Shown in pieces: positions 5,025 through 25,915 of a stretch of DNA of 64,000 nucleotides. Origin of the DNA: Bacteroidota bacterium (lineage in GTDB: Bacteria; Bacteroidota; Ignavibacteria; Palsa-1295). The stretch lies in NCBI GenBank assembly GCA_021324735.1, contig JAJPIO010000017.1, positions 1 to 64,000 of the forward strand. The letters run 5' to 3'. The notes under the pieces were generated by a model. It was not told the origin of the DNA and did no database searches. It worked only from the letters and a program-made list of their open reading frames with translations. Both the position numbers and the translations under genes were made by a program. The first letter of the stretch is position 1. The number at the start of each line of letters is the position of its first letter.

Positions 5025-5408
5025 GCTACTCCAGCGCTGAAGCGCTTCGCTGTGCATCTGCCGTGCTCCGCACTCCATCCTGCCACGATCGACCGAATCC
5101 CAGTCCGTTAGGACGACCGAAGCATAGCAAAGGCCTTTAGGCCTGGAAAATATTGCGTCCCCTGAATTCAAAGTCCGGTAGGACGACAGACACGTGACGG
5201 TTGGCAAGACTCTGTCGTCCTCCGGACTCCATACGGCAAAACTTACGGCTACTCCAGCGCTAAAGCGCTTCGCTACGCATCTGCCGTGCTCCGCACTAAT
5301 CGTATGGCGAGCTTTTAGTCCGTTAGGACAACCGAAGCATAGCGAAGGCCTTTAGGCCTGGAAAAAAGGCAGCCACCCCAAACGTTAAAGTCCGTCAGGA
5401 CGACAGAA
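5025..5408. repeat. REP-like palindrome array 1
   Basis: Three palindromic cores alternate. The first is AGCGCT-GA-AGCGCT (or TA variant) with the tail GCATCTGCCGTGCTCCGCACT, at 5025-5074 and 5248-5297. The second is AGGCCT-TT-AGGCCT flanked by GAAGCATAGC. The third is AGTCCG(T/G)(T/C)AGGACGAC with its inverse GTCGTCCTCCGGACT. Part of the array (5062-5228) is a near copy, in inverse orientation, of 25675-25841. It is non-coding, and short open frames through it are artefacts of the repeat. It probably spreads with the RAYT gene at 24965-25402. Confidence 0.85.
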
Positions 5409-5469
5409 CCTTGTTCCCGAAGACGAGGCGAAGTGATTCTCCAGTCCGATTGTTTTATCTATCGAAATC

Positions 5470-5643
5470 GGAACCCGGCCATAGGTGCCTATATGTTCAA
5501 CTGTCGCGATTTCATGCTAACAAGTGGCCAGCATACGCCGGCATGCATTGCTGTTCGCGATCATTGAAACCTGACGGCATTTTTCGAAGGGGAGGTCCGA
5601 TTAATGAACGAAATTCAAAACACAAAATCAAAATAATTTGATA
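5470..5643 (+). repeat. 174-bp conserved non-coding element, copy 1
   Basis: This segment is colinear with the reverse complement of 24247-24419 (173 bp). By eye about three quarters of positions agree, and the last 44 bp (5600-5643) are identical. The outer end carries a hairpin with CATAGG at 5480-5485 and CCTAT from 5488, inside GAAC...GTTC. It lies between REP array 1 and the start of the phosphatase gene at 5671, so it may supply a promoter or leader, or be one end of a mobile unit. No open frame is shared by the two copies. Confidence 0.8.
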
Positions 5644-5670
5644 TATCATTAGGAGTACCTCTACTGTACA

Positions 5671-7908
5671 ATGCGCACACGAGCTCTATTTTATATCGTC
5701 TTCGGATTCCTCATTCTGGGGGCATTGCTCGTGCTCGACCTGGTTGCACATTCGTACAGCGCGATGCACGGTGCGTTGCTCGAGCTTATTCGGGCAGGTT
5801 TGCAGGGAGCTGCAATGCTATGGTTCGCCCGTGCTGCGGAGGTCCTGTTCTTCCGTACGTCTTCCGTAAGCCGGGTAGAAGAGGTGCGGCAGGCTGCACG
5901 ATGGCCGATCGTACTCGTCGAGCGGTTCTCGATCGTGCTGGGTGGAAGCGTACTGCTGGCGCTCGCGCCCTACGTTTTTACACTGTCACTTCGCCGGGTA
6001 ACGACGCCCGGTCCGTTCAAGATCGAGCCCGAGCGTTTCGCGACCGTATGGTCGATCGATATTCTCGGCTTCTTGTGGCTCGTCATGCTCGTAGTACTGC
6101 TCATGAGCTTTTGGCAGATCGTCTTTGTGCGGCAATCGCCACACTTTGCCCGACGCCGGTTTATATCATGGGCGGTAGCGGCCGGATTCTTCGCGCTCTT
6201 TACATTGTGGCGCGATGAAGGTGTTATTCCGCCGGGTGCATGGTCCGGTTCGCTTATTGGTGCAGTAGCACTCGTCGTCGGAATTGCCGCGCTCTTGTTG
6301 GGCTATCGGTTGCCATGGCTTCCACACGCGACCCGAGAAGGGAAACAGAAGCTGCTGATGTTCGCAGCGATCAACACGGTCCTCGCGCTTGCGGCCCTGA
6401 TCGCATTCGGTGGGGATAAGCTTCCTGCCGACGAGATATTCGAACGCTATGCACTTTTCTGGCACTCGGCGGCAGTCGCGGCTTTCGGAACATTGGCGAT
6501 CTACTTTGCACTCGTCTTCTTTAGTACGCTGTTTACGTTATCGTCGACGGAACTTGTCGAGCGTAAATCGGCGGAAGTGCAATCGCTTGCACGGTTAACG
6601 CGCTTTTCTTCCGATATCTTATCGAGCGAGTTGTTGCTCGATCTTCCCAAGCTGGCCGAACAGATCACGGCACTTGCTGCCGAGGCAACCGAGTCCGATT
6701 GTGCCTGGCTTGAACTAAGGACCACGAATTCTTTCAATGTAGGCCGCAATAATGGTGAAGAGATCATACGCTCGTATGCCAGTATTGGCGAGCAGGCGGC
6801 GGAGCGGATCATGCAAGAGGCCGAGGGATTCCCCGAAGCGGGACTTCAGATACCATCACCGCGCGGTGAGCTCGAGCGATCGCGTAAGCCGTTCGTTATT
6901 CGCCGGCGGATAAGCAACCGGCAGTATCTATTTCCCAATGCCCAACAGACGACCGAGAATAGGGAGCTGCATTCGCTCGTTGCTGTTCCGCTCATCCGAA
7001 AGGATGAAGTTCGCGGTGGACTGTATGTGGCGAAAGAGCGGGAAGATGCTTTTGATGATGATGACCTCACGGTTCTCACGGCATTCAGTGATGTAGCGTC
7101 GCTTGCTTTGGAAACGGCGAAGCTGGTTCAGAATTCGATCGAGAAGCAAAAGTTCGATGGAGAATTACGTGCGGCGCGCGTAATGCAGAAGAGCCTTCTG
7201 CCCGAGCGGTTTCCCGCTATTCCCGGATTCGATATCTATGCGATCAGCATTCCTGCGTATGATGTCGGAGGTGATTATTATGACTTTTCGACGCTGTGGG
7301 ATGCCTCAACGATGATCGCGATCGGCGATGTATCCGGTAAGGGTATTTCGGCTTCGCTGTATATGGCGGAGACCAAAGGTGTAGTTCAGGCGCTGGCTCC
7401 GATCATGGCGAGCATGACGGAGTTGCTGGATGGGACGAACGCCGCGCTACTCCACAACTCGCCATCGACAGCTTCGCTGCGCCGGTCCTTTGTTACGCTT
7501 GGACTGGTATCGTTTGGTAAGAAGGGCGTTCGTTTCGTTCGTGCCGGGCATACTCCGCTCTTGCATGTTTCGAAGGACGGTTCATTCCGATTCCTGCAGC
7601 CACGGGGCATGGCGGTCGGGCTGATCCATCAACCGATCTTCACCGAGGTATTGGAAGAATTACCCGTCGAAGTTTCCTCGGGAGATGTGCTCGTTCTTTT
7701 TAGCGATGGTATTACCGACGCCCGTAATCCCGAAGGCAAGGAGTTGGGCTACGATCTGCTGGCACAATTCGTCCGCCAGAATTTAGATGTGACGAACGCC
7801 CGCGATCTTACCCTGAAAGTTTTGTCTTCAGTTGCAGAGTATACACAATCGGGCAACTTTGATGATGATGCTACACTCGTTGTAATGAGGTGTCTCGAAA
7901 AATTGTAG
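5671..7908 (+). CDS. Membrane GAF-SpoIIE (RsbU-like) serine phosphatase
   Basis: 745 residues. Residues 1-290 hold about eight hydrophobic segments. A GAF-type sensor domain follows at about 310-485, then a helical linker (GELRAARVMQKSLLPE, the usual entry to these phosphatases). The PP2C/SpoIIE domain is at about 515-740, with metal-binding Asp motifs DVGGDYYDF, IGDVSGKG, FSDGITDARN and NFDDDATLVV. The family dephosphorylates a phosphoserine on a STAS anti-sigma antagonist, and such a gene follows 4 nt downstream, so the pair is probably an operon of a partner-switching stress or sigma-factor pathway. The membrane region and GAF domain would sense the signal, whose nature is unknown. TAGGAG lies 14 nt before the ATG, longer than usual spacing. 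Confidence 0.9.
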   Translation: MRTRALFYIVFGFLILGALLVLDLVAHSYSAMHGALLELIRAGLQGAAMLWFARAAEVLFFRTSSVSRVEEVRQAARWPIVLVERFSIVLGGSVLLALAPYVFTLSLRRVTTPGPFKIEPERFATVWSIDILGFLWLVMLVVLLMSFWQIVFVRQSPHFARRRFISWAVAAGFFALFTLWRDEGVIPPGAWSGSLIGAVALVVGIAALLLGYRLPWLPHATREGKQKLLMFAAINTVLALAALIAFGGDKLPADEIFERYALFWHSAAVAAFGTLAIYFALVFFSTLFTLSSTELVERKSAEVQSLARLTRFSSDILSSELLLDLPKLAEQITALAAEATESDCAWLELRTTNSFNVGRNNGEEIIRSYASIGEQAAERIMQEAEGFPEAGLQIPSPRGELERSRKPFVIRRRISNRQYLFPNAQQTTENRELHSLVAVPLIRKDEVRGGLYVAKEREDAFDDDDLTVLTAFSDVASLALETAKLVQNSIEKQKFDGELRAARVMQKSLLPERFPAIPGFDIYAISIPAYDVGGDYYDFSTLWDASTMIAIGDVSGKGISASLYMAETKGVVQALAPIMASMTELLDGTNAALLHNSPSTASLRRSFVTLGLVSFGKKGVRFVRAGHTPLLHVSKDGSFRFLQPRGMAVGLIHQPIFTEVLEELPVEVSSGDVLVLFSDGITDARNPEGKELGYDLLAQFVRQNLDVTNARDLTLKVLSSVAEYTQSGNFDDDATLVVMRCLEKL

Positions 7909-7912
7909 GTCT

Positions 7913-8290
7913 ATGGCACAAGAAACTTCTACACCATCTCGATTTCATGTTGCAGCCTTTACTCGTCCGGGCTCACCGGTTGCTGTGATCGAGTTGGGAG
8001 GGCAACTGGATGCACACACGGCGCCGGAGTTTGAGCGCTTCCTCGAACGCACCGTTCGTGACGAGGATAAGCATCAGCTCGTACTCGATTTCGAAAAGCT
8101 CGATTACATTTCGAGTGCGGGGCTGGGTGTGCTGATGGGCTTGATCGAAGAAGTGCGTGCTGGTGGCGGTGACATTAAACTTGCGAAGTTACCGGAGAAG
8201 ATCTATCACGTACTTGACCTGCTCGGATTTCCTCTCGTGTTCCAGATCTTTTCGACTATCGAAGAGGCGGAATCAGCGTTTGAAAGTTAA
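7913..8290 (+). CDS. STAS-domain anti-sigma factor antagonist
   Basis: 125 residues forming one STAS domain. The segment VLDFEKLDYISSAGLGVLMG contains the SSAGLG loop with the serine normally phosphorylated by an anti-sigma kinase. It starts 4 nt after the SpoIIE phosphatase stop, so the phosphatase most likely acts on this protein. When dephosphorylated it would bind the anti-sigma kinase and free a sigma factor. Neither kinase nor sigma factor is in the window. The call is firm; the particular pathway is inferred. Confidence 0.92.
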   Translation: MAQETSTPSRFHVAAFTRPGSPVAVIELGGQLDAHTAPEFERFLERTVRDEDKHQLVLDFEKLDYISSAGLGVLMGLIEEVRAGGGDIKLAKLPEKIYHVLDLLGFPLVFQIFSTIEEAESAFES

Positions 8291-8348
8291 AAGAATTTAC
8301 GGTAACAATTTGCCCGTCCGGTGATTGATGTAAGAAACGAGCGTCCCC

Positions 8349-8921
8349 ATGAAGCAAGCTGGTTTCTGCATCATTGCATTTATGCTTTTGGGCTGTCAGC
8401 AGTCCACACAGCCGCAGTCAAAAATGTTCGCTGATGCGAAGCATGCTGGTAACATCTCGACCATCTACGAAATTGGTCCTCACAACGATCCGCCTCCCGC
8501 CACCGATTTTGCCTGGCTCGATTCGACCGGCAAAGTACATTGGTTAAGCGAGTATAAAGGACGAACGGTTGTTCTTAATATATGGGCTTCGTGGTGTTCC
8601 AACTGCATCACAGAGATGCCGGGTTTACAGAACATCGCACAAAACGGTGGCGACTCTATTGTGGTCATCGGCATTTCCAATGATAACCAGCGAAGTAATA
8701 CGTTCGAGACCATTCAAGCCTTCACCAAAGCATATAAGATCACGTATCAGGTCGTGATCGATTCGATGTTACTTTTGACAAGTGATTACATTGCTGCATC
8801 GAATGGGCTGTACAGCATTCCCGAAACGTTTATCATTGGTAAAGATGGAGCGATCAAGTTTCTTCTGCCTGGGGACCATCCGGAAGCCACTATTAAGAGC
8901 TACATTGACAAGGCCAACTGA
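8349..8921 (+). CDS. TlpA/ResA-like thioredoxin-fold lipoprotein
   Basis: 190 residues. A signal sequence ends in the lipobox-like LLGC at about residue 16, so it is probably a lipoprotein facing the periplasm. The domain is AhpC-TSA/redoxin type: PPPATDFAWLD near the start, then the active site WASWCSNC. The CxxC is intact, and the cis-Pro region SIPETFIIGKDG is present. Relatives reduce disulfides in cytochrome c maturation or act as general periplasmic thiol reductases; the substrate here is unknown. It stands alone between the STAS gene and the tRNA. Confidence 0.87.
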   Translation: MKQAGFCIIAFMLLGCQQSTQPQSKMFADAKHAGNISTIYEIGPHNDPPPATDFAWLDSTGKVHWLSEYKGRTVVLNIWASWCSNCITEMPGLQNIAQNGGDSIVVIGISNDNQRSNTFETIQAFTKAYKITYQVVIDSMLLLTSDYIAASNGLYSIPETFIIGKDGAIKFLLPGDHPEATIKSYIDKAN

Positions 8922-8973
8922 GATCGAGGAGCAATCAATTAGAGCTTGGTGTTAAGCGAATCTTACCAGTTTT

Positions 8974-9047
8974 GGCCTCGTAGTTCAGTTGGATAGAACA
9001 TCAGTTTCCTAAACTGAGTGTCGCAGGTTCGAGTCCTGCCGAGGCTA
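8974..9047 (+). tRNA. tRNA-Arg (anticodon CCT)
   Basis: A full cloverleaf can be drawn. The acceptor GGCCTCG/CGAGGCT has one G-T pair, and the D arm is GTTC/GAAC. The anticodon stem TCAGT/ACTGA holds the loop TTCCTAA (anticodon CCT, reads AGG). The variable loop is 5 nt, and the T arm is GCAGG/CCTGC with loop TTCGAGT. The discriminator is A and the 3' CCA is not encoded. Confidence 0.95.
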
Positions 9048-9097
9048 CTGTGTCACCGTTAGCGTATCGAGTTGAGTGTCGAACAAAGTTGAAGCAT

Positions 9098-9967
9098 ATG
9101 AGTACAGTACGTTTTACGCTCTTCTTTTGCCTGTTTATAACGTTGGCGGGTGTTACGCATGCTCAGAACGACTCGACCAATTGGCATGCGATCGAAGAGG
9201 TCTTTGAGCGTCCCGGTACGATCCAGGATCAATATTTTAAGATCAGTTTTCCTCGAAGCGATCTATACGTTACGATCGACGGCGTGCAGATCGCGCCGGC
9301 CTTAGCGCTTACCTCGTGGTTCGGCTTTATGCCGAATGGCTCGGATGTAATGATGATGGGTGACCTTGTGCTGACAGAGAGCGAAGTGCCTGCGGTGGAA
9401 TCCAAACTTGAAGAACAAGGTCTTCAAATTACTGCTCTTCACAATCACCTTATCGGTGAATCGCCTGCCGTTAAATACGTACACATTGAAGGTAGTGGCG
9501 AAGCAACGACGGTTGCCAGGAAACTACGGTCAGTGCTGGCACTTACAGGTACACCAATGACTACCACCATGCCCCCGAGCGATGGGACGGATTGGTCGAT
9601 GGTAGAATCGATCATTGGTGTAAAGGGCCAGGTAAAAGGTCACGTATTACAAATGTCTCTTCCGCGTGCACAGAAAGTTACAGAGAATGAGATGGAAATT
9701 CCTCCATTTCTCGGTACGGCAACGGCTCTCAATTTTGAGATGATCGGAGATAAGACCGCCACAACCGGAGATTTCGTATTGATCGCCAGTGAAGTAAATC
9801 CTGTTGTCACGGCTTTAAGAGATAACGGTATCATTGTTACGGCGATACATAACCATATGTTCAATGAGTCGCCGCGGCTTTTTATGCTTCATTTTTGGGC
9901 GTATGGAGCTCTCACGGAAGTCGCACACGGCCTTCGCACGGCACTCGATAGAGTAGATCTAAAGTAA
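9098..9967 (+). CDS. Exported DUF1259 (LppY/LpqO-like) protein
   Basis: 289 residues. The signal peptide ends at about residue 23 (THAQ). The rest holds two similar halves, each a DUF1259-like unit: the second repeats the pattern of the first, with an ALTSWFGF/ATALNFEM strand, then GD(L/F)VL, then ITA(L/I)HNH with MF/LIGESP. The two HNH(L/M) motifs are the obvious candidate metal-binding or active sites. Function of the family is unknown. The frame opens at 9050, just after the tRNA, but ATG 9098 gives the proper signal peptide. No operon partner is evident. Confidence 0.8.
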   Translation: MSTVRFTLFFCLFITLAGVTHAQNDSTNWHAIEEVFERPGTIQDQYFKISFPRSDLYVTIDGVQIAPALALTSWFGFMPNGSDVMMMGDLVLTESEVPAVESKLEEQGLQITALHNHLIGESPAVKYVHIEGSGEATTVARKLRSVLALTGTPMTTTMPPSDGTDWSMVESIIGVKGQVKGHVLQMSLPRAQKVTENEMEIPPFLGTATALNFEMIGDKTATTGDFVLIASEVNPVVTALRDNGIIVTAIHNHMFNESPRLFMLHFWAYGALTEVAHGLRTALDRVDLK

Positions 9968-10211
9968 TGCGACCGCAAAGCTCATCCTTTTGGGAAGCGA
10001 TCGAGAATAATAAAAAGTGTAGCACAATACTTGATGGATGATTTGCTGGTAGCCAGTATTATTTATACCAATATATACGGCCCGCCATTTGTCAACTCTT
10101 CAGTATTGTTATTGAAGCGTTTGCCTTGCGGTTTCGACGTTTGCGCAAACGGATGAATTTTGAAGCGTGAAGATAGTGTTTGCTTGCTTTCGATAATCTT
10201 ACCATATTTTG

Positions 10212-11078
10212 ATGACCCGTGTAGTCTTTTTCTTTCTTCTTCTATCGGTGTGCTCGCAGGCGTATGCACAAAAGATCGATTCAACCGGACGACGGATCGA
10301 TAGTACCACGCAGGTTCACCTGCAGGCAACATCGAAAGGCCATATCATGTGGCATGATTTCAAGGAGAGTGTCTATGATGGCGGCCAGTACATCGAGCGA
10401 CCATTGCATTGGAATCTTCGAGAATGGCTCATCATCGGGACCGTCGGTGGTGTAACTGCACTTTTTACCGGCGTGGATGATAATATTGCGCGCGGGTTCT
10501 TTCAGAGAAATCAAAGTTCAGTCGGCGATGCCATAGCGACCGTCGGCAATTTTTATGGTAGTGGTATTCCTACGATCATTACCGGATTGGGACTCTATGG
10601 AATTGGTTTAGAGACTGATAACTCGAAGGTCCGAGTTATGGGTCGGCACGTTATTCAGTCCTTCGCCTATGCGGGTCTTACAACGACTGCGATCAAGATA
10701 TTGATCGGCCGTGAACGACCGTTTAATGGCAGCGGTCCAGATGTATTCCATGGATTTTCGCTAAAGAATGCCTGGAATTCACTTCCATCGGGGCATGCCA
10801 CGGTCGCTTGCGCTCTTTCATCGACTCTTGCTGCTGAAATAGATAATCCGTACGTAACTGCCGGGCTTTACGCCTTAGTCGGTACAACGGTGTTCGGGCG
10901 TCTTTATACCGATAACCATTGGCTAAGTGATACATTTTTAGGTGGTGTGATCGGCTCCGTTGCAGGGTACTGGGTTGCCGCGGAAGTTGAACATTACGAT
11001 ACCAACCAGAATAGCAAAGAAACGGGGTTTGTAATAGAACCCGGTATCGGAAATATTACTTTTGCATACCGTTGGTAG
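10212..11078 (+). CDS. PAP2-family membrane phosphatase
   Basis: 288 residues with a signal peptide ending near AYAQ. The three phosphatase signatures are present: K-x6-RP (KILIGRERP), PSGH (in LPSGHATVAC) and R-x5-H-x3-D (RLYTDNHWLSD). The fold is type-2 phosphatidic acid phosphatase. Likely substrates are lipid phosphates such as undecaprenyl pyrophosphate or phosphatidate at the periplasmic face. ATG 10212 is preferred to the TTG just before it. A 22-bp gap to crcB suggests possible co-transcription. Exact substrate unknown. Confidence 0.88.
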   Translation: MTRVVFFFLLLSVCSQAYAQKIDSTGRRIDSTTQVHLQATSKGHIMWHDFKESVYDGGQYIERPLHWNLREWLIIGTVGGVTALFTGVDDNIARGFFQRNQSSVGDAIATVGNFYGSGIPTIITGLGLYGIGLETDNSKVRVMGRHVIQSFAYAGLTTTAIKILIGRERPFNGSGPDVFHGFSLKNAWNSLPSGHATVACALSSTLAAEIDNPYVTAGLYALVGTTVFGRLYTDNHWLSDTFLGGVIGSVAGYWVAAEVEHYDTNQNSKETGFVIEPGIGNITFAYRW

Positions 11079-11099
11079 CAAAAAGGATCTCGGCCTGAG

Positions 11100-11474
11100 T
11101 TGAAAAATTATCTTTTTTTGATCGTTGGCGGAGCGACTGGTGTTGCACTCCGCTATGCACTTGGCGTGTGGATCTCGGAATGGAATACCTCCCTGTTCCC
11201 GTGGGCGACGCTTGCTATTAACGTTACTGGATCGCTTGCGCTCGGATTTTTAATGCGCTATCTTACCGGGACAGCATCGTCTCCTGCAATGCGCCTGATG
11301 CTAACGACGGGATTTTGTGGCGGATATACTACGATGAGTACGTTCTCGTACGAGTTAGTTACGCTGTTTACCGAACGGCAATACGGACTGGCCTTCGCAT
11401 ACTTGGGAGCAACGATCGTCCTTGCACCGCTTGCTACCTTACTGGGCTTTGCACTCGCTGAATTCGCGCTCTGA
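11100..11474 (+). CDS. crcB: Fluoride channel CrcB/FluC
   Basis: 124 residues with four hydrophobic segments, the standard length. Family signatures are visible: GGATGVALRYALG at the N-terminus, the N-T-G of INVTGSLALGFL, and GFCGGYTTMSTFSYE with the Phe/Thr pore residues. CrcB/Fluc dimers are dual-topology channels that release F-. The start is a TTG, and no better start exists. The next gene encodes a DUF190 protein 4 nt downstream, a common partner. No fluoride riboswitch could be recognised upstream. Confidence 0.92.
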   Translation: MKNYLFLIVGGATGVALRYALGVWISEWNTSLFPWATLAINVTGSLALGFLMRYLTGTASSPAMRLMLTTGFCGGYTTMSTFSYELVTLFTERQYGLAFAYLGATIVLAPLATLLGFALAEFAL

Positions 11475-11478
11475 TACA

Positions 11479-11853
11479 ATGGAAGCATTTACAAAGAACG
11501 ACCCCAATGACCCATGGCAGCTAATGCGCATCTTTATTGGAGAATCCGATAAAGCCGCTCATGGTAAATATCATGGCAAACCACTATGGGAAGCGCTGCT
11601 CAGTGATTTTCGAGAGCGAGGATTAGCGGGATGCACGGTAGTTCGAGCGATCGCCGGGTTTGGAGCGAGTGCGAAGGCGAGAAATATCTTGTCGGAATAT
11701 TTATCGAGCGATTTGCCGATCATTATCGAGGTGGTTGATAAACAATCGAAGATTCGCTCGATCATGCCCGATCTCGATGAGATGCTTGATGGTGGAATGG
11801 TGACGCTGGAAAAGGTAGAGGTGGCACTCTATCGCCCCAGTACTAAGAGCTAA
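11479..11853 (+). CDS. DUF190 protein (CrcB partner)
   Basis: 124 residues. LMRIFIGESDK, followed by GKPLWEALLSDFRERGLAGCTVVRAIAGFG, is the DUF190 signature; the fold is PII-like in known relatives. The frame is open from 11422 inside crcB, but ATG 11479 gives the family N-terminus and sits 4 nt after the crcB stop. Genome neighbourhood in many bacteria links DUF190 with CrcB, so a role in fluoride sensing or channel control is likely but unproven. The 3' end overlaps the convergent MFS gene by 11 bp. Confidence 0.88.
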   Translation: MEAFTKNDPNDPWQLMRIFIGESDKAAHGKYHGKPLWEALLSDFRERGLAGCTVVRAIAGFGASAKARNILSEYLSSDLPIIIEVVDKQSKIRSIMPDLDEMLDGGMVTLEKVEVALYRPSTKS

Positions 11854-13144
11854 CTGCTGGCACACGTTTGCGCAGAAGCGCAAAGGACATTGTGAAAACA
11901 ATAAAGACGAGACCGGCTGGAATACAAAAGATCGCTCCATGCAAATGAGCAAATAGTGCTCCACCCACGAGCAAGCCGCAAATGCTTGCCAGGCTTCCGG
12001 CGCTGTTGCCGATACCCTGAATGTATCCCTGATTTTCTTCCCCGGCGTGGTTTGACAGCAGCGATAGAAACGATGGCCACATGAGTCCATTGCCAAGTGC
12101 ATAGAGTACGGCTGCAAGATATGCCATTGCCGTATTGGGAACGAGTAAAGCCAGGTAGCTTAGCACGACAATGAACGTACCCCATATCGTGAGTGCTTCG
12201 GCCGAGACACTTTGATTGAGCCAGGAAAGGATCGGTCCTTCTGTGAGCACAATGACGATACTGAGTACCGAAAAGAACGCACCCATTTCACCGGTACTCC
12301 AGTGCAATGTTTCGGTGCCATAGAGTGGCATGGCAGCTACGAACATACTGAAAGCGAGAAAGAAGACGAAGTATATAGCGATTAAAATGGGAATGCCTTC
12401 GAGCTTGAACGCACCTTTTAGCGTCATTCGCTCAGGTTTCTCCGCTTTGTAACATTCTTTCGATGAGCGGCCGAGATTTTTACCGAGGCCCTGATCGAAC
12501 GCTTCGTGGGATGGCCTCGGACGCGATTCGGGGAGTTTCCAGACGATCAGGACGAGAGCAATAATGGTCGTTGCAAGAGCGGCCACGACAGGCAACGTCA
12601 GGCCGTATACTGTTTCTGCAAGGACGCCCGCTAATGCGGGCCCAATGACAAAGCCGAGGTTTGCAGCGACGCCGAGTTTCCCGAAATCTGCTTTACGCTC
12701 TTCCTGCGTCGTAATGTCGGCAAGGTAAGCGTTTGCAACAGAGATATCGCCGGCAGTAAGTCCATCAATAGCCCGAGCAACGAAGAGTAGCGCAAGCGGC
12801 ACTGTGATAATGGTCAGTCCTAAGGTATTATCGGAAAAGGAGACGAGATTTGAAACTGGGAGATAAAGGGCGATCAGGAAAAGGGTCCAACCCAGGGCGG
12901 AGCCCAGACTGCTAACAAAGAGGATCTTCTTACGGCCGTATCTATCGGAAAGCCGGCCAAGGATCGGAGAGCCCAGTAATTCGAACGCCGAATACGTCGC
13001 TCCCACGGCTCCGTATAGGAATTCGTTACCACGAAATTGATGGACCATATAGACGAGCGAGGGCAGGACGATCGAGTAGCCGAGCGTCCCAATAAAATTG
13101 ACGACAAGCAGCGGTAATATGGAAATTTTCCGATTTGACGACAT
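11843..13144 (-). CDS. MFS efflux transporter (TetA/tetracycline-type subfamily)
   Basis: About 433 residues with 12 predicted membrane segments. MFS motif A is clear in the 2-3 loop (GRLSDRYGRKK), and the fourth to fifth segments carry the RAIDGLTAGDISVANAYLAD pattern of multidrug/TetA-like drug:H+ antiporters. A cytoplasmic loop at the middle contains a Cys and several charged residues. The upstream frame reaches 13207, but ATG 13144 starts directly at the first membrane segment. Substrate unknown. It is transcribed alone, divergent from mce. Confidence 0.85.
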   Translation of the reverse strand: MSSNRKISILPLLVVNFIGTLGYSIVLPSLVYMVHQFRGNEFLYGAVGATYSAFELLGSPILGRLSDRYGRKKILFVSSLGSALGWTLFLIALYLPVSNLVSFSDNTLGLTIITVPLALLFVARAIDGLTAGDISVANAYLADITTQEERKADFGKLGVAANLGFVIGPALAGVLAETVYGLTLPVVAALATTIIALVLIVWKLPESRPRPSHEAFDQGLGKNLGRSSKECYKAEKPERMTLKGAFKLEGIPILIAIYFVFFLAFSMFVAAMPLYGTETLHWSTGEMGAFFSVLSIVIVLTEGPILSWLNQSVSAEALTIWGTFIVVLSYLALLVPNTAMAYLAAVLYALGNGLMWPSFLSLLSNHAGEENQGYIQGIGNSAGSLASICGLLVGGALFAHLHGAIFCIPAGLVFIVFTMSFALLRKRVPAVSS

Positions 13145-13225
13145 AATGGCTAAAACTGCTACGAAGATACTCATTTCAGCCCGTAGCGGCTTCAATCCTT
13201 CCGGCAAAATCGCTGTTGACGGCTA

Positions 13226-13630
13226 ATGATGAAGATTTCTCATGTAGGAATTGCTGTACGCGATCTGGCTGCTGCAGAAGCGATATTCAAGAAGCTGTTA
13301 GAGGATGATCGCGTACATCATGAAGAGGTCGCAGACCAGAAGGTGCGTATCGCGTCCTTCGAACTTGGAGATAGTCGGATCGAGCTTACCCAGCCGACCG
13401 AATCCGATTCTCCAATTTCCAAATTTTTGGAGAAGCGGGGAGAGGGCATTCACCATCTTGCGTTTGAAGTGGAAGATGTTGCCGCAGAGCTTGCCAGGTT
13501 AAAAGCGAAAGGGTTCGAGCTTATTGACGAAACGCCCCGACCTGGCTCGCATCATACACGTATTGCTTTTCTTCATCCAAGATCGACGAACGGAGTTCTC
13601 ATTGAATTGTGCCAGAAGGAGGACCATTGA
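13226..13630 (+). CDS. mce: Methylmalonyl-CoA epimerase
   Basis: 134 residues, full length for the family. The glyoxalase/VOC fold carries metal-ligand motifs at ISHVGIAV, GIHHLAFEV and VLIEL, and the EKRGEGIHH segment that marks methylmalonyl-CoA epimerases. It converts (S)- and (R)-methylmalonyl-CoA for the succinyl-CoA to propionyl-CoA route; the mutase is not in the window. Two adjacent ATGs start it. Its last codons hold the ribosome-binding site of uvrC, so the two genes are coupled. Confidence 0.9.
   Translation: MMKISHVGIAVRDLAAAEAIFKKLLEDDRVHHEEVADQKVRIASFELGDSRIELTQPTESDSPISKFLEKRGEGIHHLAFEVEDVAAELARLKAKGFELIDETPRPGSHHTRIAFLHPRSTNGVLIELCQKEDH
13616..13622 (+). promoter_or_regulatory. 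Strong ribosome-binding site deciding the uvrC start
   Basis: AAGGAGG, 4 nt before the TTG at 13627, which overlaps the mce stop TGA (13628-13630). This is the best Shine-Dalgarno site noticed in the window. It favours TTG 13627 over GTG 13609 or ATG 13651. Confidence 0.7.
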
Positions 13631-16778: not shown

Positions 16779-16780
16779 AC

Positions 16781-18055: not shown

Positions 18056-18116
18056 AACGTGGCAGAATTCTTATTGTCAGACGGGCTGTTCTTGGTATAG
18101 CCTCAAGCTTCTGTCT

Positions 18117-18731
18117 ATGCGATTTCCCACCCAATTGACCGTTTTGCGGATCGTGCTTGCACCGGTCTTTTTACTGCTGATGGTCTATACGGATCCGCCG
18201 CAGTTCTTCTGGGCTGCGATCGTTTTTGCGGTGGCTGCCATTAGCGATTGGTGGGATGGGCATATCGCGCGCCGAATGAACCTCGTTTCTCGCCTCGGTG
18301 CTTTTCTCGACCCGCTTGCCGATAAACTGCTTACGAGTGCGGCATTTATTGCTTTCGCTTGGCTTGGTTATATTGAGTGGTGGATGGTTTTGGTTGTTTT
18401 GGCTCGTGATATCTACCTCACAGTATTTCGTATTATTGGTGATGCGCTCGATCTTCCTATCAAGACCAGTTACTCGGCGAAGGTCAAAACCTTCGTGCAA
18501 ATGACATTCATCGTTATCCTGCTGGTTGCGTTGGTCTCAACGCGCGGAATGTTTGGGGATCAGTTAAAAACTATTGGATGGACGATCGTCGCTCACAATG
18601 TCCTTCTATGGGGGATGGGCGCAGTAACGCTACTGACATTCTCTTCTGCTCTTATGTATACCTACGATAACTGGTCGGTGCTCCGGGCTGCCGCTCGCCG
18701 TTATGTTTTAGGGGGTCAGGAGACCATTTAA
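18117..18731 (+). CDS. pgsA: CDP-diacylglycerol-glycerol-3-phosphate 3-phosphatidyltransferase
   Basis: 204 residues, with four to five hydrophobic segments. The CDP-alcohol phosphatidyltransferase signature D-x2-DG-x2-AR-x8-G-x3-D-x3-D is complete at about residues 43-68 (DWWDGHIARR, then GAFLDPLADK). The frame is open from 17997 inside rsmB, but ATG 18117 matches the family N-terminus. It makes phosphatidylglycerol phosphate at the inner membrane, and the next gene, pgpA, removes the phosphate. Confidence 0.93.
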   Translation: MRFPTQLTVLRIVLAPVFLLLMVYTDPPQFFWAAIVFAVAAISDWWDGHIARRMNLVSRLGAFLDPLADKLLTSAAFIAFAWLGYIEWWMVLVVLARDIYLTVFRIIGDALDLPIKTSYSAKVKTFVQMTFIVILLVALVSTRGMFGDQLKTIGWTIVAHNVLLWGMGAVTLLTFSSALMYTYDNWSVLRAAARRYVLGGQETI

Positions 18732-18735
18732 CGAA

Positions 18736-19284
18736 GTGCTTAATAACGAACGAAAGCCGCAACGTTTCGATTGGCTTCGAAAAGCGCGATCGCGAATTTG
18801 GTCGCCACCTCAAAATCTGCATCGTGTTCCCTGGTTTGCTCTTCTCATTGGAAGCTTCTTTTATTCGGGTCTTTCCCCGGTCGGTTCTGGCACGGTCGGC
18901 AGCTTAGTTGCCGCGGCCCTTTATTATTTCATTCCGGTTTTACAGGCTCCCGGTATCCTTGCTATTGCATCGGTGGTCGTTCTTTTTATTGGCATTTGGT
19001 CCGGCGGTATCGTGGAACGTACACTGGAGAAGCAGGATCCAGGCATTGTCGTGATCGATGAAGTACTGGGCCAATGGATGGCACTCATTTCCTGGAGCTT
19101 TATTGGCGATCTTCGCTTTACGATCGCCGCCTTCCTTTTCTTCCGACTGTTTGATGTGCTTAAACCCTGGCCAGCTCGGTATTTCGAGCGAAAACATGGA
19201 GGAACCGGCATCATGTTGGATGATGCAGTGGCGGGTATCTATGCCAATATTGCAGCTCATCTTATAATGTATTTTATTCGTTAG
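18736..19284 (+). CDS. pgpA: Phosphatidylglycerophosphatase A
   Basis: 182 residues starting at GTG 18736, 4 nt after pgsA. The PgpA family pattern is visible: GSFFYSGLSPVGSGTVGS near the N-terminus, IDEVLGQWMAL with the catalytic Asp/Glu, and the C-terminal segment ending in MLDDAVAGIYAN. Three to four membrane segments. It dephosphorylates phosphatidylglycerol phosphate. A basic N-terminal tail of about 30 residues precedes the domain. Confidence 0.92.
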   Translation: MLNNERKPQRFDWLRKARSRIWSPPQNLHRVPWFALLIGSFFYSGLSPVGSGTVGSLVAAALYYFIPVLQAPGILAIASVVVLFIGIWSGGIVERTLEKQDPGIVVIDEVLGQWMALISWSFIGDLRFTIAAFLFFRLFDVLKPWPARYFERKHGGTGIMLDDAVAGIYANIAAHLIMYFIR

Positions 19285-19285
19285 C

Positions 19286-20548
19286 ATGAACGCTGAGATC
19301 ATTTCGATAGGAGATGAACTGTTGATCGGCCAGGTCGTCAATACGAATGCGGCCTGGATCGGCCGGGAGCTTGGGGCGTTAGGAGTTCCTGTTACTCGAG
19401 TTAATACCATTGGCGATAATGCTAAAGAGATAATTGTAACATCTCGTCGTGCGTGGAAAGAGGCGGATGTTGTTATTGCGACTGGAGGACTTGGCCCCAC
19501 GCACGATGATATTTCAAAAGCAGCGGTCGCTACATTTTTCAAGAAAAAATTAAAGCTGCATAAGCCAACGCTCGAAGCAGTGAAAGCGCGCTTTGCGAAG
19601 TTAGGCTACGATAAAATGCCGGAGTCGAACATATCCCAGGCGATGGTCCCGGAAGGTTTTCAGGTATTGAAGAACGACCGTGGCACCGCACCAGGATTGC
19701 TCTTCTATAATGCTGGTAAAACATATATCATTTTACCCGGCGTCCCACAGGAAATGGAATTTTTGATGACCGGTAGCGTCCTTCCATTCCTTAAACATAA
19801 GTATAAGAATAAGCTCGAAGCGATCAAGCACAGAACGATCATCACAGCAGGAATTGGTGAGTCATCTCTTGCTGAAAAGATAGGCGATCCCAAGACATTT
19901 TTGAAAAAGAGCACGATCCTCGCATTCCTTCCCCGAGCAGAGGGTGTTCGATTGCGCATTACAAGCCACGGTAAAAGTACTGCGACGGTAAACAAAGAGA
20001 TCGATCGAGTTGAGGCTATCATCCGTGAGCGAGCGGGAAAATATGTATTAGGCACTGAAGATCAAACGCTTGCTGCAACAGTCGTTCGGCTTCTTACCGA
20101 GAGATCGAAAGTGCTCGCAACGGCGGAAAGTTGTACCGGTGGGCTTATTGCGTCGAAGATCACCGAGACTGATGGAGCCAGTACAGTCTTTTATGGTAGT
20201 ATCGTTGCCTACCATAATCACGTTAAGATCAAAGAACTTGGTGTTCGGCAACTTACGCTTATCGAGCACGGAGCTGTAAGCGAAGAAACAGCGATCGAAA
20301 TGGCGGAAGGAGCACTGGAAAAGCTCGGTTCCGATTTCGCCATCGCAGTAACCGGCATCGCTGGCCCCGATGGGGGGACAAAGGAAAAACCGGTCGGTAC
20401 TATTTGGATCGCACTTGCCGAGCGCAATGCTCCAACGCTTACCAAAAAATTACAACAAGATTTTGGTCGAGTAGGGAATCGCGAACGGGCTGCCGCAGCA
20501 GCCTTGGAAATGCTTCGGCGCCGACTGCTTGGCAACGACGCAGCCTAA
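19286..20548 (+). CDS. cinA: CinA-like protein, MoCF domain plus nicotinamide-nucleotide amidase domain
   Basis: 420 residues, two domains. The first (1-170) is MoCF/COG1058-like, with IISIGDELLIGQVVNTN and TGGLGPTHDDISKAA. The second (260-420) is the CinA C-terminal domain, with TAESCTGGLIASKIT and TGIAGPDGGT, which deamidates nicotinamide mononucleotide in pyridine nucleotide recycling. The start is 1 nt after the pgpA stop, so it is the last gene of the mce-cinA run. It overlaps the convergent MFS gene by 4 bp, with no room for a terminator between them. Confidence 0.94.
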   Translation: MNAEIISIGDELLIGQVVNTNAAWIGRELGALGVPVTRVNTIGDNAKEIIVTSRRAWKEADVVIATGGLGPTHDDISKAAVATFFKKKLKLHKPTLEAVKARFAKLGYDKMPESNISQAMVPEGFQVLKNDRGTAPGLLFYNAGKTYIILPGVPQEMEFLMTGSVLPFLKHKYKNKLEAIKHRTIITAGIGESSLAEKIGDPKTFLKKSTILAFLPRAEGVRLRITSHGKSTATVNKEIDRVEAIIRERAGKYVLGTEDQTLAATVVRLLTERSKVLATAESCTGGLIASKITETDGASTVFYGSIVAYHNHVKIKELGVRQLTLIEHGAVSEETAIEMAEGALEKLGSDFAIAVTGIAGPDGGTKEKPVGTIWIALAERNAPTLTKKLQQDFGRVGNRERAAAAALEMLRRRLLGNDAA

Positions 20549-21807
20549 GCGATTGCAGCTTCTAATTTCTCTTCGGTTCGTTCGTGGTTGCTTTCCCGGA
20601 CCCTTCTTAGTAAAAGGAGACCTCCAACGAAGAACAGGCCTACCGTGAGAATGGCCATTCGTTGACCACCCATATCTGAAAGACTCCCAAACACCAGCGG
20701 TCCGATAATACCGCTTGCCCGGCCAGCGAAACCGTCATAAAATCCAAAGAACTCGGCCGTATGCTCGGAAGGTGTGAGCAGCGCCATAAGGCTTCTCGAG
20801 CACGCCTGACTCGAGCCAAGGGAAATTCCCGCAAGTGCACCAACGACATAAAAGGTCGATTTGGTGGTAGCAAAGAATGCCAATGCTACAACGACGATCC
20901 AAATAATAAGCGTGATCTGTATGGCTCGTTTCGGGCCAATACGATCTGCGATACGACCGAAAATAAGCGAACCGATCACCGCCACGATCTGGATCATCAC
21001 GAAAAAGATGGCAAGTTCGATCAATGTAAAATGCAAGGTACCTTTTGAATAGATACCGCTAAAGGCTACCACCGTCAATATGCCATCGTTATACAGAAAG
21101 AAGGCGAGCAGGAAGTTGGTGATGTTCGGATACTTGCGAATATTCTTCACCGTAGTTGCCAGTCGGCCAAACCCTTGCTTTACGAGTCCACCAAAACTGA
21201 TATGAGTAAAGGTGGTTTTGCGGTGTTCTGGAACGAATAAAAAGAGTGGCAAAGTAAAGATCGCGTAATCAGCGGCCGTTAAGAGAAAGGTCTGGCTGCT
21301 GGCACCATTAAGAAATGGAATGGAAGCAAGCAGGATCACAAGTGATCCGATATAGCCGCAGGCAAAACCGAGGCCCGATATTCTTCCAAATGTTTCCGGT
21401 GTAGTTATCTCCGGAAGGAAGGCATCGTAGAAAACAAGTCCACCTTCATAGCCGGCATTGGCCAGTAAGAAGAGTATCGCAGCCGGCAATACCATTCCTG
21501 GTTTCATAAAGTAGAGCAATGCGCTACATAGTACTACCGTCCATGCAAAAATGCCGAGGTAGAGCTTCTTATTATTGAGGACATCCGCCATCGCGCCAAG
21601 CAGCGGGGTGATAAGCGCTACCAGCAGCATCGAACCGAAGACGGTGTTTCCCCAGTAAGCATCGCCGTGGCCGTTCTGCACGATGACATCGTGGAAGTAT
21701 ATCGGGAAGACAAAGACTACCATGACGGTCGAAAATGACCCCATCGCGAAGTCGAAGCTCGCCCACGATGCAATTACTTTCCACGAAAAAGGCTGCGACT
21801 GCTTCAT
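20545..21807 (-). CDS. UMF1-type MFS transporter
   Basis: 420 residues, about 12 membrane segments. The opening motif SWASFDFAMGSFSTVMVVFVFPIYF, and the spacing of the first loop (AYWGNTVFGSMLLVALITPLLG), fit the UMF1/Atg22-like group of the major facilitator superfamily. Substrate unknown; relatives include peptide and amino acid effluxers. It overlaps nusB by 4 nt (ATGA), so it is probably co-transcribed with nusB. Confidence 0.85.
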   Translation of the reverse strand: MKQSQPFSWKVIASWASFDFAMGSFSTVMVVFVFPIYFHDVIVQNGHGDAYWGNTVFGSMLLVALITPLLGAMADVLNNKKLYLGIFAWTVVLCSALLYFMKPGMVLPAAILFLLANAGYEGGLVFYDAFLPEITTPETFGRISGLGFACGYIGSLVILLASIPFLNGASSQTFLLTAADYAIFTLPLFLFVPEHRKTTFTHISFGGLVKQGFGRLATTVKNIRKYPNITNFLLAFFLYNDGILTVVAFSGIYSKGTLHFTLIELAIFFVMIQIVAVIGSLIFGRIADRIGPKRAIQITLIIWIVVVALAFFATTKSTFYVVGALAGISLGSSQACSRSLMALLTPSEHTAEFFGFYDGFAGRASGIIGPLVFGSLSDMGGQRMAILTVGLFFVGGLLLLRRVRESNHERTEEKLEAAIA

Positions 21808-22457
21808 TCGTTAGTCGCTATCGGTGGCTCATTCGCTTCGCCATTCATTGGCCGGTCTCCGATAAGGCCACGACCGGATTTCTTTAGCTCGCCGGTCTCA
21901 CGAAGGTGCGTCATCACGGCATGTAATAAGCCATTGATAAACTTACCGCTTTCGTCCGTCGAGTAATCCTTTGCAATTTCGATCAACTCATTGATCGTTG
22001 CTTTCGGTGGGATCTCTGGGAAATAAAGCAACTCGGTGATACCGATCTGGATTAGCAGCCGGTCGATCAAAGCAACGCGTCTAATATCCCAACGTTGCAA
22101 TTTGCCCGTAATGAGGTTATTGATTTCCTCGCGATGCTTCACCAGGGCGAACGTCAGATCGCGAGCGAAGGTAAGAGCACCGTTTGGCTCTTCGCCTTCG
22201 GTTACGGTTGAACTCGGCTTTCCGGATGCGGCGCGCTCATCCGCTTCGGTAAGATCTTTTTCGACCAATTCCTTAAATAATAGGTCGAGATCGCTGCCAC
22301 CTAACTCATTGGCGTATAGCATCTGCATAACCCGCTCCCGGGCCAGACGCCGCTTGGGCAATTTGCGATCGCGCTTCGGATCGTTCTCGAATAGCTCTTC
22401 TGCTTCGATCCTCGGTGGCTCTAGCGCTTCAAAGTGTTCGTGCGTTGGATGAGTCAC
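21804..22457 (-). CDS. nusB: Transcription antitermination factor NusB
   Basis: 217 residues. The NusB core is at about 35-190: RLARERVMQMLYANEL at the start and ALIDRLLIQIGITELLY, then PPKATINELIEIAKDYST and KFINGLLHAV near the end. It binds the boxA RNA with NusE during rRNA transcription. The N- and C-terminal tails are longer than in small NusB proteins and rich in Glu/Lys. It lies between the SurA_N gene (3 nt away) and the UMF1 carrier (overlap). Confidence 0.93.
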   Translation of the reverse strand: MTHPTHEHFEALEPPRIEAEELFENDPKRDRKLPKRRLARERVMQMLYANELGGSDLDLLFKELVEKDLTEADERAASGKPSSTVTEGEEPNGALTFARDLTFALVKHREEINNLITGKLQRWDIRRVALIDRLLIQIGITELLYFPEIPPKATINELIEIAKDYSTDESGKFINGLLHAVMTHLRETGELKKSGRGLIGDRPMNGEANEPPIATNE

Positions 22458-22460
22458 AGA

Positions 22461-23186
22461 TCAATAAAATCCAAAACGTAACCGGTTATCAATAATATGG
22501 GCTGTAAGTTTCGCTCGTTTAAGCCACGCCTCGAACGCTCGTTCACGTTCGGATGCAGTAGCGGCATGCGGAGCGATACTTTGCATTAGCCGCTCCGTTT
22601 CCAATCGTACTTTTTCGCTTTCGATGATGATATGAACGATGCTGTCATTTCTCGGATCGTTCATAGCTTGCGACATATAGCTCGGATGAAACTCACCGGT
22701 CGAATCCGAAAACTGCCGGCGTAAAAATTCCGGCGGATGTTCTATCAGCGAGTCCTTGATCTCGGCGTCGGTCATTGCGATCCGTCGCTTGCCGATCTCT
22801 TCCTCCGTCAGGATATCGCTTACGGCGCGGTCCCAGGCAGAGTCAACGATCACGGAATAGAGGCTATCGGTCACCACATCATTATGCGAACGTTGGGTAA
22901 AGATTCTAAGATACCCTGCCATGATCGAATTAAAATCGCGATAGGTGATGATCTCACCATTAACGATCCCGACCGTATCCGTTGGCAAATGATTACGGAT
23001 CGTATCGGCAGGGACTAATTTGCTGTGCGGTCTCTTCTTTTTCGTATGACCTTTCTGGGCCTGGGCGGCAAGCGGAGCCATTACTGCCAGGACAACAGCC
23101 AACCCAACTACTGTCAGAATAAAACGGGTCACAAAATTTTCAAAGAGTGTATTTAAACGATCCGTGCTTTTAGGTTTCCTGCTCAA
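22461..23186 (-). CDS. SurA_N-type periplasmic chaperone without PPIase domain
   Basis: 241 residues. A membrane/signal segment (residues 17-45, ending AAQAQ) is followed by the SurA N-terminal pattern: TVGIVNGEIITYRDFNSIMAGYL, then a helical region and a C-terminal EAWLKRAKLTAHIIDNRLRFGFY that resembles the terminal strand/helix of SurA. No parvulin domain is present. It may fold or carry outer-membrane proteins, but this is inferred from the domain. It sits 3 nt upstream of nusB. Confidence 0.75.
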   Translation of the reverse strand: MSRKPKSTDRLNTLFENFVTRFILTVVGLAVVLAVMAPLAAQAQKGHTKKKRPHSKLVPADTIRNHLPTDTVGIVNGEIITYRDFNSIMAGYLRIFTQRSHNDVVTDSLYSVIVDSAWDRAVSDILTEEEIGKRRIAMTDAEIKDSLIEHPPEFLRRQFSDSTGEFHPSYMSQAMNDPRNDSIVHIIIESEKVRLETERLMQSIAPHAATASERERAFEAWLKRAKLTAHIIDNRLRFGFY

Positions 23187-23270
23187 CTCCGCCCGGGCGG
23201 AATTCGTTGTCCTTGCCGCGTACTATTTTCGAATATATTTTTTTAGCTGAACAATAGCATCAATTCCCGA

Positions 23271-24113
23271 TCACGGGGTTACCGTTGCTGTGATCGGATT
23301 CGTCTTCGCAATCTCCGCATTGTTCATCCGAATACCGAGCGTCAGGGTGATCAGTCCGGGCTGAATGTCCGGTGGTGCGGCGAATTCCAGCGTCATCCCA
23401 GCAGGGGAAAGGCCACAGCTTTCAACAAAACTGCGCCAGGTCTTACCGTTTTGCTCGAGATAAAGAAAATTACCTTCAGACAGTTTATCCCAGTCCTTCA
23501 TAATACGATGATTCACGGCTGTCCATTGCTGGGCCGGTGTAAGCTTGCTGAGACCGATATTTGCTTCCAATTCTTCGCGGGCTTTTTTCTCATCGACGAT
23601 ACCTTCCGGTACAAATCCATCGCCGACGATCTTGAAATTGGTAAGTGGCTTGATCGTACCGCCTTCGACGGTGGTTAATTTAGTCTCAACTTTTTTCTGT
23701 ACATTGAAGTAATACGGTATGCTCGGGTCGGAGCCATTGACCAAGAATAGCGTCGCTTTGCCCTCTTCGAGCGTTACCGGCGCCATAAAGGTCGCAATAC
23801 AGGAATCGCCAACCGATTGATATGACCCCAGCGGCATCCAGACCTGCTTGCCGTTCTGCTCGATGCGAAGGATCGGAATATCGGATTTCACCCAGGCGAT
23901 CAGCCGCTCTGCCGTGCATTTCGACTGCGATTTGGGATGCTCCGGATCGGGATTCTGAAATACGATGATACCCATTTGCCCGGCTGCAATTGTTTTTGGC
24001 AGCGAGTAGACCTTCAGTTTTTTTGCCTGAGCGATCTCGGGGCGGGTCAAAGTAGAAAGAACAACCGTGGTAAGGAGGAGCAGAGACCAGATCGTTACGT
24101 AACGTTTCATCAT
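23271..24113 (-). CDS. Exported protein of unknown function
   Basis: About 280 residues beginning at two adjacent ATGs; translation from further upstream is possible but would be in the repeat flank. A signal peptide ends at about residue 30 (IAQA). The rest is beta-rich, has two early cysteines (SKCTAER, DSCIATF) and shows a pattern of short Ig-like strands (GKATLFLVNG, GLITLTLGIRM). An IPT/TIG or similar fold is possible but no family was recognised. The upstream region is the 174-bp element at 24247-24419, so that element may provide its promoter or leader. Confidence 0.7.
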   Translation of the reverse strand: MMKRYVTIWSLLLLTTVVLSTLTRPEIAQAKKLKVYSLPKTIAAGQMGIIVFQNPDPEHPKSQSKCTAERLIAWVKSDIPILRIEQNGKQVWMPLGSYQSVGDSCIATFMAPVTLEEGKATLFLVNGSDPSIPYYFNVQKKVETKLTTVEGGTIKPLTNFKIVGDGFVPEGIVDEKKAREELEANIGLSKLTPAQQWTAVNHRIMKDWDKLSEGNFLYLEQNGKTWRSFVESCGLSPAGMTLEFAAPPDIQPGLITLTLGIRMNNAEIAKTNPITATVTP

Positions 24114-24246
24114 ACCGGTTCGCAGTATATCGTCGTGGAGCGAGTCAATTGTCCAGGTAGTGCGAGTGAAGAGTAACTGTAAACAATCGTATCCATGAGT
24201 CCTGTTCGCTCCACGTGTGCGTGCGAACATAGACTATGAATCAATT

Positions 24247-24419
24247 TATCAAATTATTTTGATTTTGTGTTTTGAATTTCGTTCATTAATGGGGCCTTCT
24301 CTGGAAAAATGTTCGTCGCGTTTCAAGGATCGCGAACAGCAATGCGTGCCGGCGTAAGCTAGCTACTCATTGGTGTTAATAACGATAGTGAACACATAGG
24401 CACCTATGCCGGAGTTCCG
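24247..24419 (-). repeat. 174-bp conserved non-coding element, copy 2
   Basis: This is the inverse of the element at 5470-5643 (see there), with the 44-bp identical part at 24247-24290. The hairpin CATAGG-CA-CCTATG lies at 24395-24408 inside GAAC (24390-24393) and GTTC (24414-24417). The identical end again faces the nearby gene, here the exported protein starting at 24113, about 130 bp away. Confidence 0.8.
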
Positions 24420-24432
24420 GTCACGATAGGTA

Positions 24433-24956
24433 TCTGTCGTCCTCCAGGCCTGAAGGCCTTCGCTAATCTCTGTCGTCCTAACGGACTTAAATATTTTGTG
24501 GGTTGCCGATTTTCCAGGCCTGAAGGCCTTCGCTATGCTTCGGTCGTCCTAACGGACTTCGATTCAGTTGGCTCGTGACAGGATGAAGTGCGGAGCACGA
24601 CCGATGCATAGCAAAGCGCTTTAGCGCTGGGAATGAGATTCGAAAATAGAGGTAAGTCCGGAGGACGACAGAACCGTCGTGCGTAGAAATCTGTCGTCCT
24701 GCCGGACTCTAAATTCTTTCCTATTTCGATTTCCAGGCCTGAAGGCCTTCGCTATGCTTCTATCGTTCTGGCGGACTTGAATGCTTTGTGGGTTGCCGAT
24801 TTTCCCAGGCCTGAAGGCCTTCGCTAATCTCTATCGTCCTAATGGACTAAAAGCTCGCCGCGCGATAAGTGCGGAGCACGACCGATGCATAGCAAAGCGC
24901 TTTAGCGCTGGAAATACGATTCGAAAATAGATATGAGTCCGGAGGACGACAGAACC
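24433..24956. repeat. REP-like palindrome array 2
   Basis: Alternating copies of the same three cores as array 1: AGGCCT-GA-AGGCCT with TTCGCTATGCTTC, GTCGTCCT(A/G)(A/C)CGGACT, and the AGCGCT palindrome with GTGCGGAGCACG. A spacer containing TTTGTGGGTTGCCGATTT recurs at about 24496 and 24785. It ends 8 bp before the transposase stop codon, so it probably also limits read-through. Confidence 0.85.
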
Positions 24957-24964
24957 TCGCCTGT

Positions 24965-25402
24965 TTATATCGATTGTAATTGTTTGATGTGCTCCTTTAC
25001 GAACCGATCCCACTCTTCACGTGCGGTTATTTTCCTATGATGCTCCTTTTGGCGCTGGATGTAGAATTTAGCGCGTTCAACACTCGACAACCCTACGCTA
25101 AATGCTCCATACCCTTCCTGCCAATGAAATCGCTCGCGCCAATCGAAGGTCTCGTTTAACCATTTGGATGCATTTCCCTTAATGAGTTGTGATGCTTTGG
25201 ATACGGATATGTCGGCTTTAAGCGAGAACAGTGCGTGAATGTGATCGTCCATGCCGTTGATCGCTATCGGTGAGCCGATCTCTTTTTTGATGATCCCTCC
25301 GATATATGGATAGAGTCGCTCTTCCACATCGGGTGGTATGCGAATATTATTTGCAGTGTGAGAAACCAGATGGATAAAAAGGGAAGTGTAGGATTGTGCC
25401 AT
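24965..25402 (-). CDS. REP-associated tyrosine transposase (IS200/TnpA-like, HUH Y1)
   Basis: 145 residues starting at ATG 25402 (MAQSYTSLFIHLVS), which fits the TnpA N-terminus; the frame is open 11 codons further. The HUH metal site is HIH in GMDDHIHALFS at about residue 60. The catalytic Tyr is probably the one in RAKFYIQRQKEHH near the C-terminal part. HFHWQEGYGAFS-like residues (FHWQEGYGAFSVG) mark the IS200/REP family. The enzyme nicks and joins single-stranded DNA at hairpins, here presumably the flanking palindromes. All key residues look intact, so it may be active. Confidence 0.9.
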   Translation of the reverse strand: MAQSYTSLFIHLVSHTANNIRIPPDVEERLYPYIGGIIKKEIGSPIAINGMDDHIHALFSLKADISVSKASQLIKGNASKWLNETFDWRERFHWQEGYGAFSVGLSSVERAKFYIQRQKEHHRKITAREEWDRFVKEHIKQLQSI

Positions 25403-25462
25403 GTTCGTAATGGGAAGACCGATACAAAAATACAACGTATCATATATTTCCCTGTCGTTTTT

Positions 25463-25915
25463 CCCCGGGCCTGAAGGCCTTCGCTAATCTCTATCGTCCT
25501 GGCGGACTTAAATGCTTTGTGGGTTGCCGAATTTCCAGGCCTAAAGGCCTTCGCTATGCATCGGTCGTCCTAACGGACTTCGGTTCGGTCGATCGTGGCA
25601 GGATGGAGTGCGAAGCACGCCAGAAGCTTAGCGAAGCGCTTCAGCGCTGGGAATATGATGCGAAAACAGACACAAGTCCGGAGGACGACAGAATCTTGCC
25701 AACCGTCACGTGTCTGTCGTCCTACCGGACTTTGAATTCAGGGGACGCAATATTTTCCAGGCCTGAAGGCCTTCGCTATGCTTCGGTCGTCCTAACGGAC
25801 TTCGGTTCGGTCGATCGTGGCAGGATGGAGTGCGGAGCACGTCAGAGGTATAGCGAAGCGCTTTAGCGCTGGAAATGTGATTCGAAAATAGAGGTAAGTC
25901 CGGAGGACGACAGAG
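25463..25915. repeat. REP-like palindrome array 3
   Basis: Same modules as arrays 1 and 2. The part 25675-25841 equals the reverse complement of 5062-5228 except for about six positions in 167, including the spacers between palindromes. It lies between the transposase start and the 3' end of the T9SS cargo gene. Confidence 0.85.

Follow-up and report, generated by a model that had tools for sequence, protein, structure and literature searches.

The 18.6-kb block of housekeeping genes in the stretch of DNA analyzed here (the "window", 64,000 nucleotides; contig C18 of a Kapabacteria-type genome closely related to genomes under the names Ignavibacteriae palsa_1295 and Candidatus Kapaibacterium) is enclosed by two mirrored repeat packages, which probably arose when one repeat package inserted twice in this lineage, the mirrored arrangement being due to the position of each copy upstream of an inward-reading gene. 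We attribute the packages to REP/transposase activity, here with an unusual partner element, and do not see an invertible switch in them; related genomes keep the block in one orientation and lack the left package, which speaks for recent insertions. A pair of long, mirrored inverted repeats that encloses housekeeping genes is thus not necessarily a switch.

Mirrored repeat packages at the edges of the housekeeping block

An earlier note had described mirrored REP arrays and a short element on either side of this block, and both the arm identities and the coordinates showed that this mirrored arrangement across 18.6 kb is real. The outer arms (5030–5228 and 25675–25873) are inverted and 94% identical over 199 bp, with a longest exact run of 71 bp; their best 167-bp stretch reaches 96.4%, in line with the 96% over 167 bp given previously. 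The inner arms (5523–5646 and 24244–24367) are 85% identical over 124 bp, or 82% over about 190 bp if gaps are included, and contain the 44-bp exact run that had been reported for the inner ends. The gap from inner arm to inner arm is 18,597 bp.

On the left side, a REP array on the minus strand (5030–5407), made up of two composite blocks of two-hairpin units, precedes a copy of the ~180-bp element on the plus strand (5456–5646; head, motif A, at 5470–5499; tail, motif B, at 5601–5632), which ends 24 bp upstream of the first gene of the block. On the right side, the element copy on the minus strand (24244–24432; tail at 24258–24289, head at 24389–24418) is followed by REP-type arrays that span 24443–25917 overall, namely an inner array (24443–24956, plus strand) and an outer array (25465–25917, plus strand) around a gene for a Y1 (IS200/RAYT-like) transposase (24965–25435, minus strand). 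The idea that the same composite stands on both sides thus holds for the array and the element, but not for the transposase gene, which is present in the right package only. The left array matches the right outer array (25873–25490; 83% over 389 bp), and the left package is collinear with the right one minus the transposase gene and the inner array; it looks like the right package without these two parts. The pair is not a chance resemblance, because the element as a whole was matched nowhere else in the genome, and REP clusters outside the pair were only about 70–78% identical to the window array over at least 80 bp. The two window packages are far more alike than either of them is to any other cluster in the genome.

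Pfam confirmed the presence of uvrC, tsaD, rsmB, a pgsA-type CDP-alcohol transferase, cinA, and nusB inside the block, which also contains an MFS gene beyond cinA in window order. Its first gene (5671–7908, plus strand) encodes a protein with a GAF domain and a SpoIIE phosphatase domain and forms the left junction with a flavin-reductase gene, and its last gene (23271–24110, minus strand; the start at 24110 was chosen by homology) encodes a secreted protein of unknown family. Farther to the left, the window contains a long ORF with degenerate, ACGAACA-rich tandem repeats (33–3848), which encodes a repetitive Thr/Asn/Gly-rich protein.

REP units and the Y1 transposase

The REP unit is ~45 bp long and consists of two short hairpins and a linker like GACCGAAGCATAGCGA. 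Among 23 curated units drawn from the window and from other loci, stem 1 occurs as GTCC/GGAC, GTGC/GCAC, and GCCC/GGGC, and stem 2 as AGGCC/GGCCT, AGCGC/GCGCT, AGCCA/TGGCT, AGCCC/GGGCT, and AGGTC/GACCT. Since both sides of the stems change together in a compensatory manner, these variants indicate that the hairpins are kept and matter. In total, 11 REP clusters similar to the window array were found, and units of the same family occur at nine other places without a transposase.

The predicted transposase (156 amino acids; PF01797, E = 1e-19) contains the HUH motif as HIH and a Tyr-x3-Gln motif (YIQRQ) with the catalytic tyrosine in its translation, and its gene is bracketed by inverted palindromic repeats, the nearest units being at 24887 (plus strand) and 25465–25549 (minus strand). 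It scored 20.2 bits against the NCBIfam REP transposase model NF047646 (cut-off 80) and 45.3 against the IS200 model NF033573 (cut-off 55), and thus remained below both thresholds. A plasmid search with this protein returned only remote matches with <40% identity. The genome harbors 11 Y1-transposase genes, and among the ten inspected only the one at 24965–25435 had such REP units nearby. Around another one, at C17:7591, five copies of a different hairpin, CTGGCGATCCGGAGATCGCCAG, were observed; this hairpin also occurs just upstream of several A heads (see below).

The window shares with known RAYT/REP units an IS200-family Y1 HUH transposase gene between inverted palindromic repeats, and also the presence of additional, gene-free arrays at other genomic sites (PMC2817692). 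In contrast to those systems, its REP unit consists of two hairpins, and tens of copies were seen instead of hundreds. REPs have been defined by a GT(A/G)G head that immediately precedes the hairpin (PMC2817692); such a head is absent here, where the linker GCATAGCGA precedes hairpin 2. Because the catalytic motifs and the inverted palindromes are present, whereas the GT(A/G)G head is missing and the model score lies below the cut-off, membership in RAYT/REP proper is partial, and we refer to the gene as RAYT-like rather than RAYT. As far as anatomy can tell, the package would nevertheless work like a RAYT/REP unit. CGTC-tagged REPs are known from Bacteroidetes and Chlorobi (PMC3733652), and in the window units CGTC likewise stands before the hairpin-1 stem on one strand. 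However, the units in that survey are single hairpins and none was found next to a transposase (PMC3733652), whereas the window units have two hairpins and adjoin one. As CGTC is part of the stem and the linker in the window units, this likeness may be coincidental. Our data thus describe a REP/Y1-transposase pair of unusual build, with two covarying hairpins and no GTAG head.

Gene order in related genomes

The earlier note had proposed that recombination between the packages could invert the block, and alternatively that the symmetry might reflect an ancient inversion or two insertions of one element. We compared the gene order at both block edges with that of relatives, and the orientation was unchanged wherever it was readable (G003, G004, G005, and G006), an outcome that the earlier note had named as evidence against inversion. 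In G004, G005, and G006, the left junction joins the flavin-reductase gene and the SpoIIE gene just as in the window, without a change of order or orientation. A single contig of G004, a member of the same genus, follows the window from the left flank onward, with the SpoIIE, uvrC, tsaD, rsmB, pgsA, cinA, and MFS genes in unchanged order and orientation. On the right side, the last gene of the block (23271) adjoins its outer neighbor (27716) in G004 and G006 with less than 100 bp between them, and no transposase, array, or element was found between these genes in either genome. In G003, the order is gene 25934, 23271, 22461, nusB, MFS, cinA, and finally uvrC. The SpoIIE gene is located elsewhere in G001, G002, and G003, so the complete block is not shared by the whole genus. 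With the block orientation constant at both edges, and the left junction and the right neighbor order unchanged, neither an invertible block nor an ancient inversion was supported, whereas two insertions of one element, or an inverted duplication, are supported.

In the three relatives G004, G005, and G006, the left site consists of about 100 bp of intergenic DNA with neither array nor element; homology with the window stops at about position 5020 and restarts at the start codon at 5671. As the left site in the relatives lacks both, the packages would have been inserted within this lineage, either each by itself or with the second as an inverted copy of the first that lacks the transposase. 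At that very place, G004 has a different small hairpin pair of the GTAGCCGTGACC type. Neither an exact empty site nor a target duplication was readable, the flanking intergenic DNA being too diverged.

Origin of the mirrored packages

In this reading, the package is composed of a REP/Y1 unit, in which two arrays flank the transposase, and an attached ~180-bp head-tail unit, with the transposase kept in the right copy and the gene and inner array missing from the left one. By analogy with the mechanism proposed for known RAYTs, the transposase would spread REP units by single-strand transposition at the hairpins, the left copy would stem from the right copy or from a common parent with subsequent loss of the gene, and the element would have travelled together with the array. 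A joint move of element and array is not proven, because the element also occurs without REPs.

If the mirrored arrays recombined through RecA or the transposase, the 18.6-kb block would flip and the end genes would swap their upstream regions, and the 71-bp exact run of the inverted arms is in principle long enough for homologous recombination. We consider such an invertible segment very improbable, however: every readable relative has one and the same orientation, the Pfam-scanned genes of window and block (a subset of the ORFs) include no site-specific recombinase aside from the Y1 transposase, and a flip would change little, as the element copies make both upstream regions nearly equal. 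Rare inversion via homologous recombination may occur; no trace of it was seen. Alternatively, the right package could have been copied leftward by replication or repair errors, that is, by inverted duplication or gene conversion without transposition, and then have lost the transposase. Such copying would explain why the window packages are far closer to each other than to any other cluster, and a second mirrored element pair, whose copies lie only 5.9 kb apart, also suggests that copies stay close. Yet the copy would have had to land precisely in front of a gene on two occasions, and the arm identities are unequal. The difference between the inner (82–85%) and outer (94%) arms is easier to reconcile with two events, or with subsequent gene conversion, than with copying in one step, and altogether we deem an origin by duplication unlikely. 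Two lineage-specific insertions remain our preferred explanation, in favor of which we also count that the second mirrored pair is independent of the window pair and again shows no change of gene order in relatives.

A dispersed family of head-tail units

The ~180-bp element belongs to a family of short units, about 20 in number and scattered over the genome, which have a palindromic head (ATAGGTGCCTAT or ATGGGCACCTAT) and an A-rich tail. The head (motif A) was found at 12 genome sites (0 in the reversed control) and the tail (motif B) at 10 (0 in the control). A second tail type (C) contains a TTCATAATTGC..GCAATTATGAA hairpin, and a B or C tail lies about 100–180 bp downstream of the head at 11 of the 12 A sites, while some B tails follow another head, TATATTG-N10-TGATGGGCACCTAT. 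The DNA between head and tail is unconserved except within the window pair and within a pair around tetR-paa .. sucC. One 400-kb stretch of the genome was surveyed. Above threshold, Rfam searches of the element and its neighboring loci returned only tRNAs, the remainder being chance matches. A leader-peptide function of the tail was rejected, as the copy at C15:446921 has a stop at codon 3 and another copy lies within a gene in a different frame.

Most units are oriented toward the gene that follows; examples of such genes are rplK, rplM, floA, comM, nuoA, sucC, recA, and atpD (gene names were assigned by sequence inspection, except for floA). This orientation raises the question of whether the element is simply the regulatory upstream region of a regulon, with the head as promoter or operator and the tail as leader, and the REP arrays merely share the intergenic space. 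Consistent with such a role, the ATGGGCACCTAT head comes after a TATATTG promoter box at several genes of G004 and at recA of both G000 and G001, and comM of G000 as well as of G004 has a head together with a related tail (GTTCATGAACTCCAAAAGAACAAACGCA in the G004 gene). However, the B tail was absent from all 20 relatives searched, and the A head was nearly so (once in G006 and four times in G012). Upstream of eleven unit-bearing genes, the units were mostly missing in G004, G005, and G006; besides comM, exceptions were ATGGGCACC heads at rplK in G004 and at recA in G001. Moreover, several unit-bearing genes, including floA, nuoA, sucC, and a cytochrome gene, have a promoter-like TATTTTTG or TATATTTG box between the unit and the start codon, and therefore the unit is not simply the leader of those genes. 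The association with REP units also exceeds chance placement: 5 of the 11 REP clusters have a head-tail unit, or a relative of such a unit, no more than 400 bp away, compared to 0.07 expected by random placement genome-wide, or 0.75 if one tenth of the genome is open, although this count is a guide only, with a hand-assembled unit list and two window copies that are not independent. A regulatory role of this kind is thus conceivable but doubtful. The presence of head-tail units upstream of core genes in one species only offers a lead on the rewiring of upstream regions.

In E. coli, BIME and RIP-type composites combine REP units with another short motif in intergenic DNA. The window packages resemble them in this respect, but the motif that accompanies their REPs is mostly directed toward the following gene and exists without REPs too.

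In G004, a dispersed ~300-bp repeat has about 45 copies, two of which lie upstream of floA and rplM. Despite these locations, it is a different, G004-specific repeat and was rejected as a member of the same family.

A RecA-fold gene family with similar head and tail

A B tail is also located in the 3' part of a gene at C8:225530–226543. A ATGATGGGCACCTAT head stands ahead of the start of this gene, and REP units lie to its left and right, though not close by. Homologues carry a related A-rich stretch at the equivalent place, which does not indicate a clean insertion into this gene. The gene family has 2–7 matches in each of six of the seven genus genomes and none in G005, and in several other members, too, a head lies upstream, and an A-rich tail is situated close to the stop codon or behind it. 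Plasmid searches with the protein yielded no match. The predicted structure (pLDDT 62 overall, roughly 70–87 in the core) gave 124 matches with E ≤ 0.001 to RecA/RadA/RepA-type ATPase folds in the PDB (best match 2.6e-05, TM about 0.4); no Walker A motif was seen in the alignment. The genes may mobilize the units or may simply have a regulatory head in common with them. These similarities might tentatively suggest that the head-tail units are new small mobile units of Kapabacteria, which insert in fixed orientation just upstream of genes, move with REP clusters, and have their full-length relatives in the multi-copy RecA-fold genes, where the same head precedes the start codon and a similar tail sits toward the 3' end, but we regard this scenario as rather unlikely.

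The second mirrored element pair mentioned above is located in G000:C12:4000-17000, at about 2687–2872 and 8736–8930, around tetR-paa .. sucC. Its copies are 91% identical over 193 bp, with the tail at the end, and relatives keep an identical gene order in this region.
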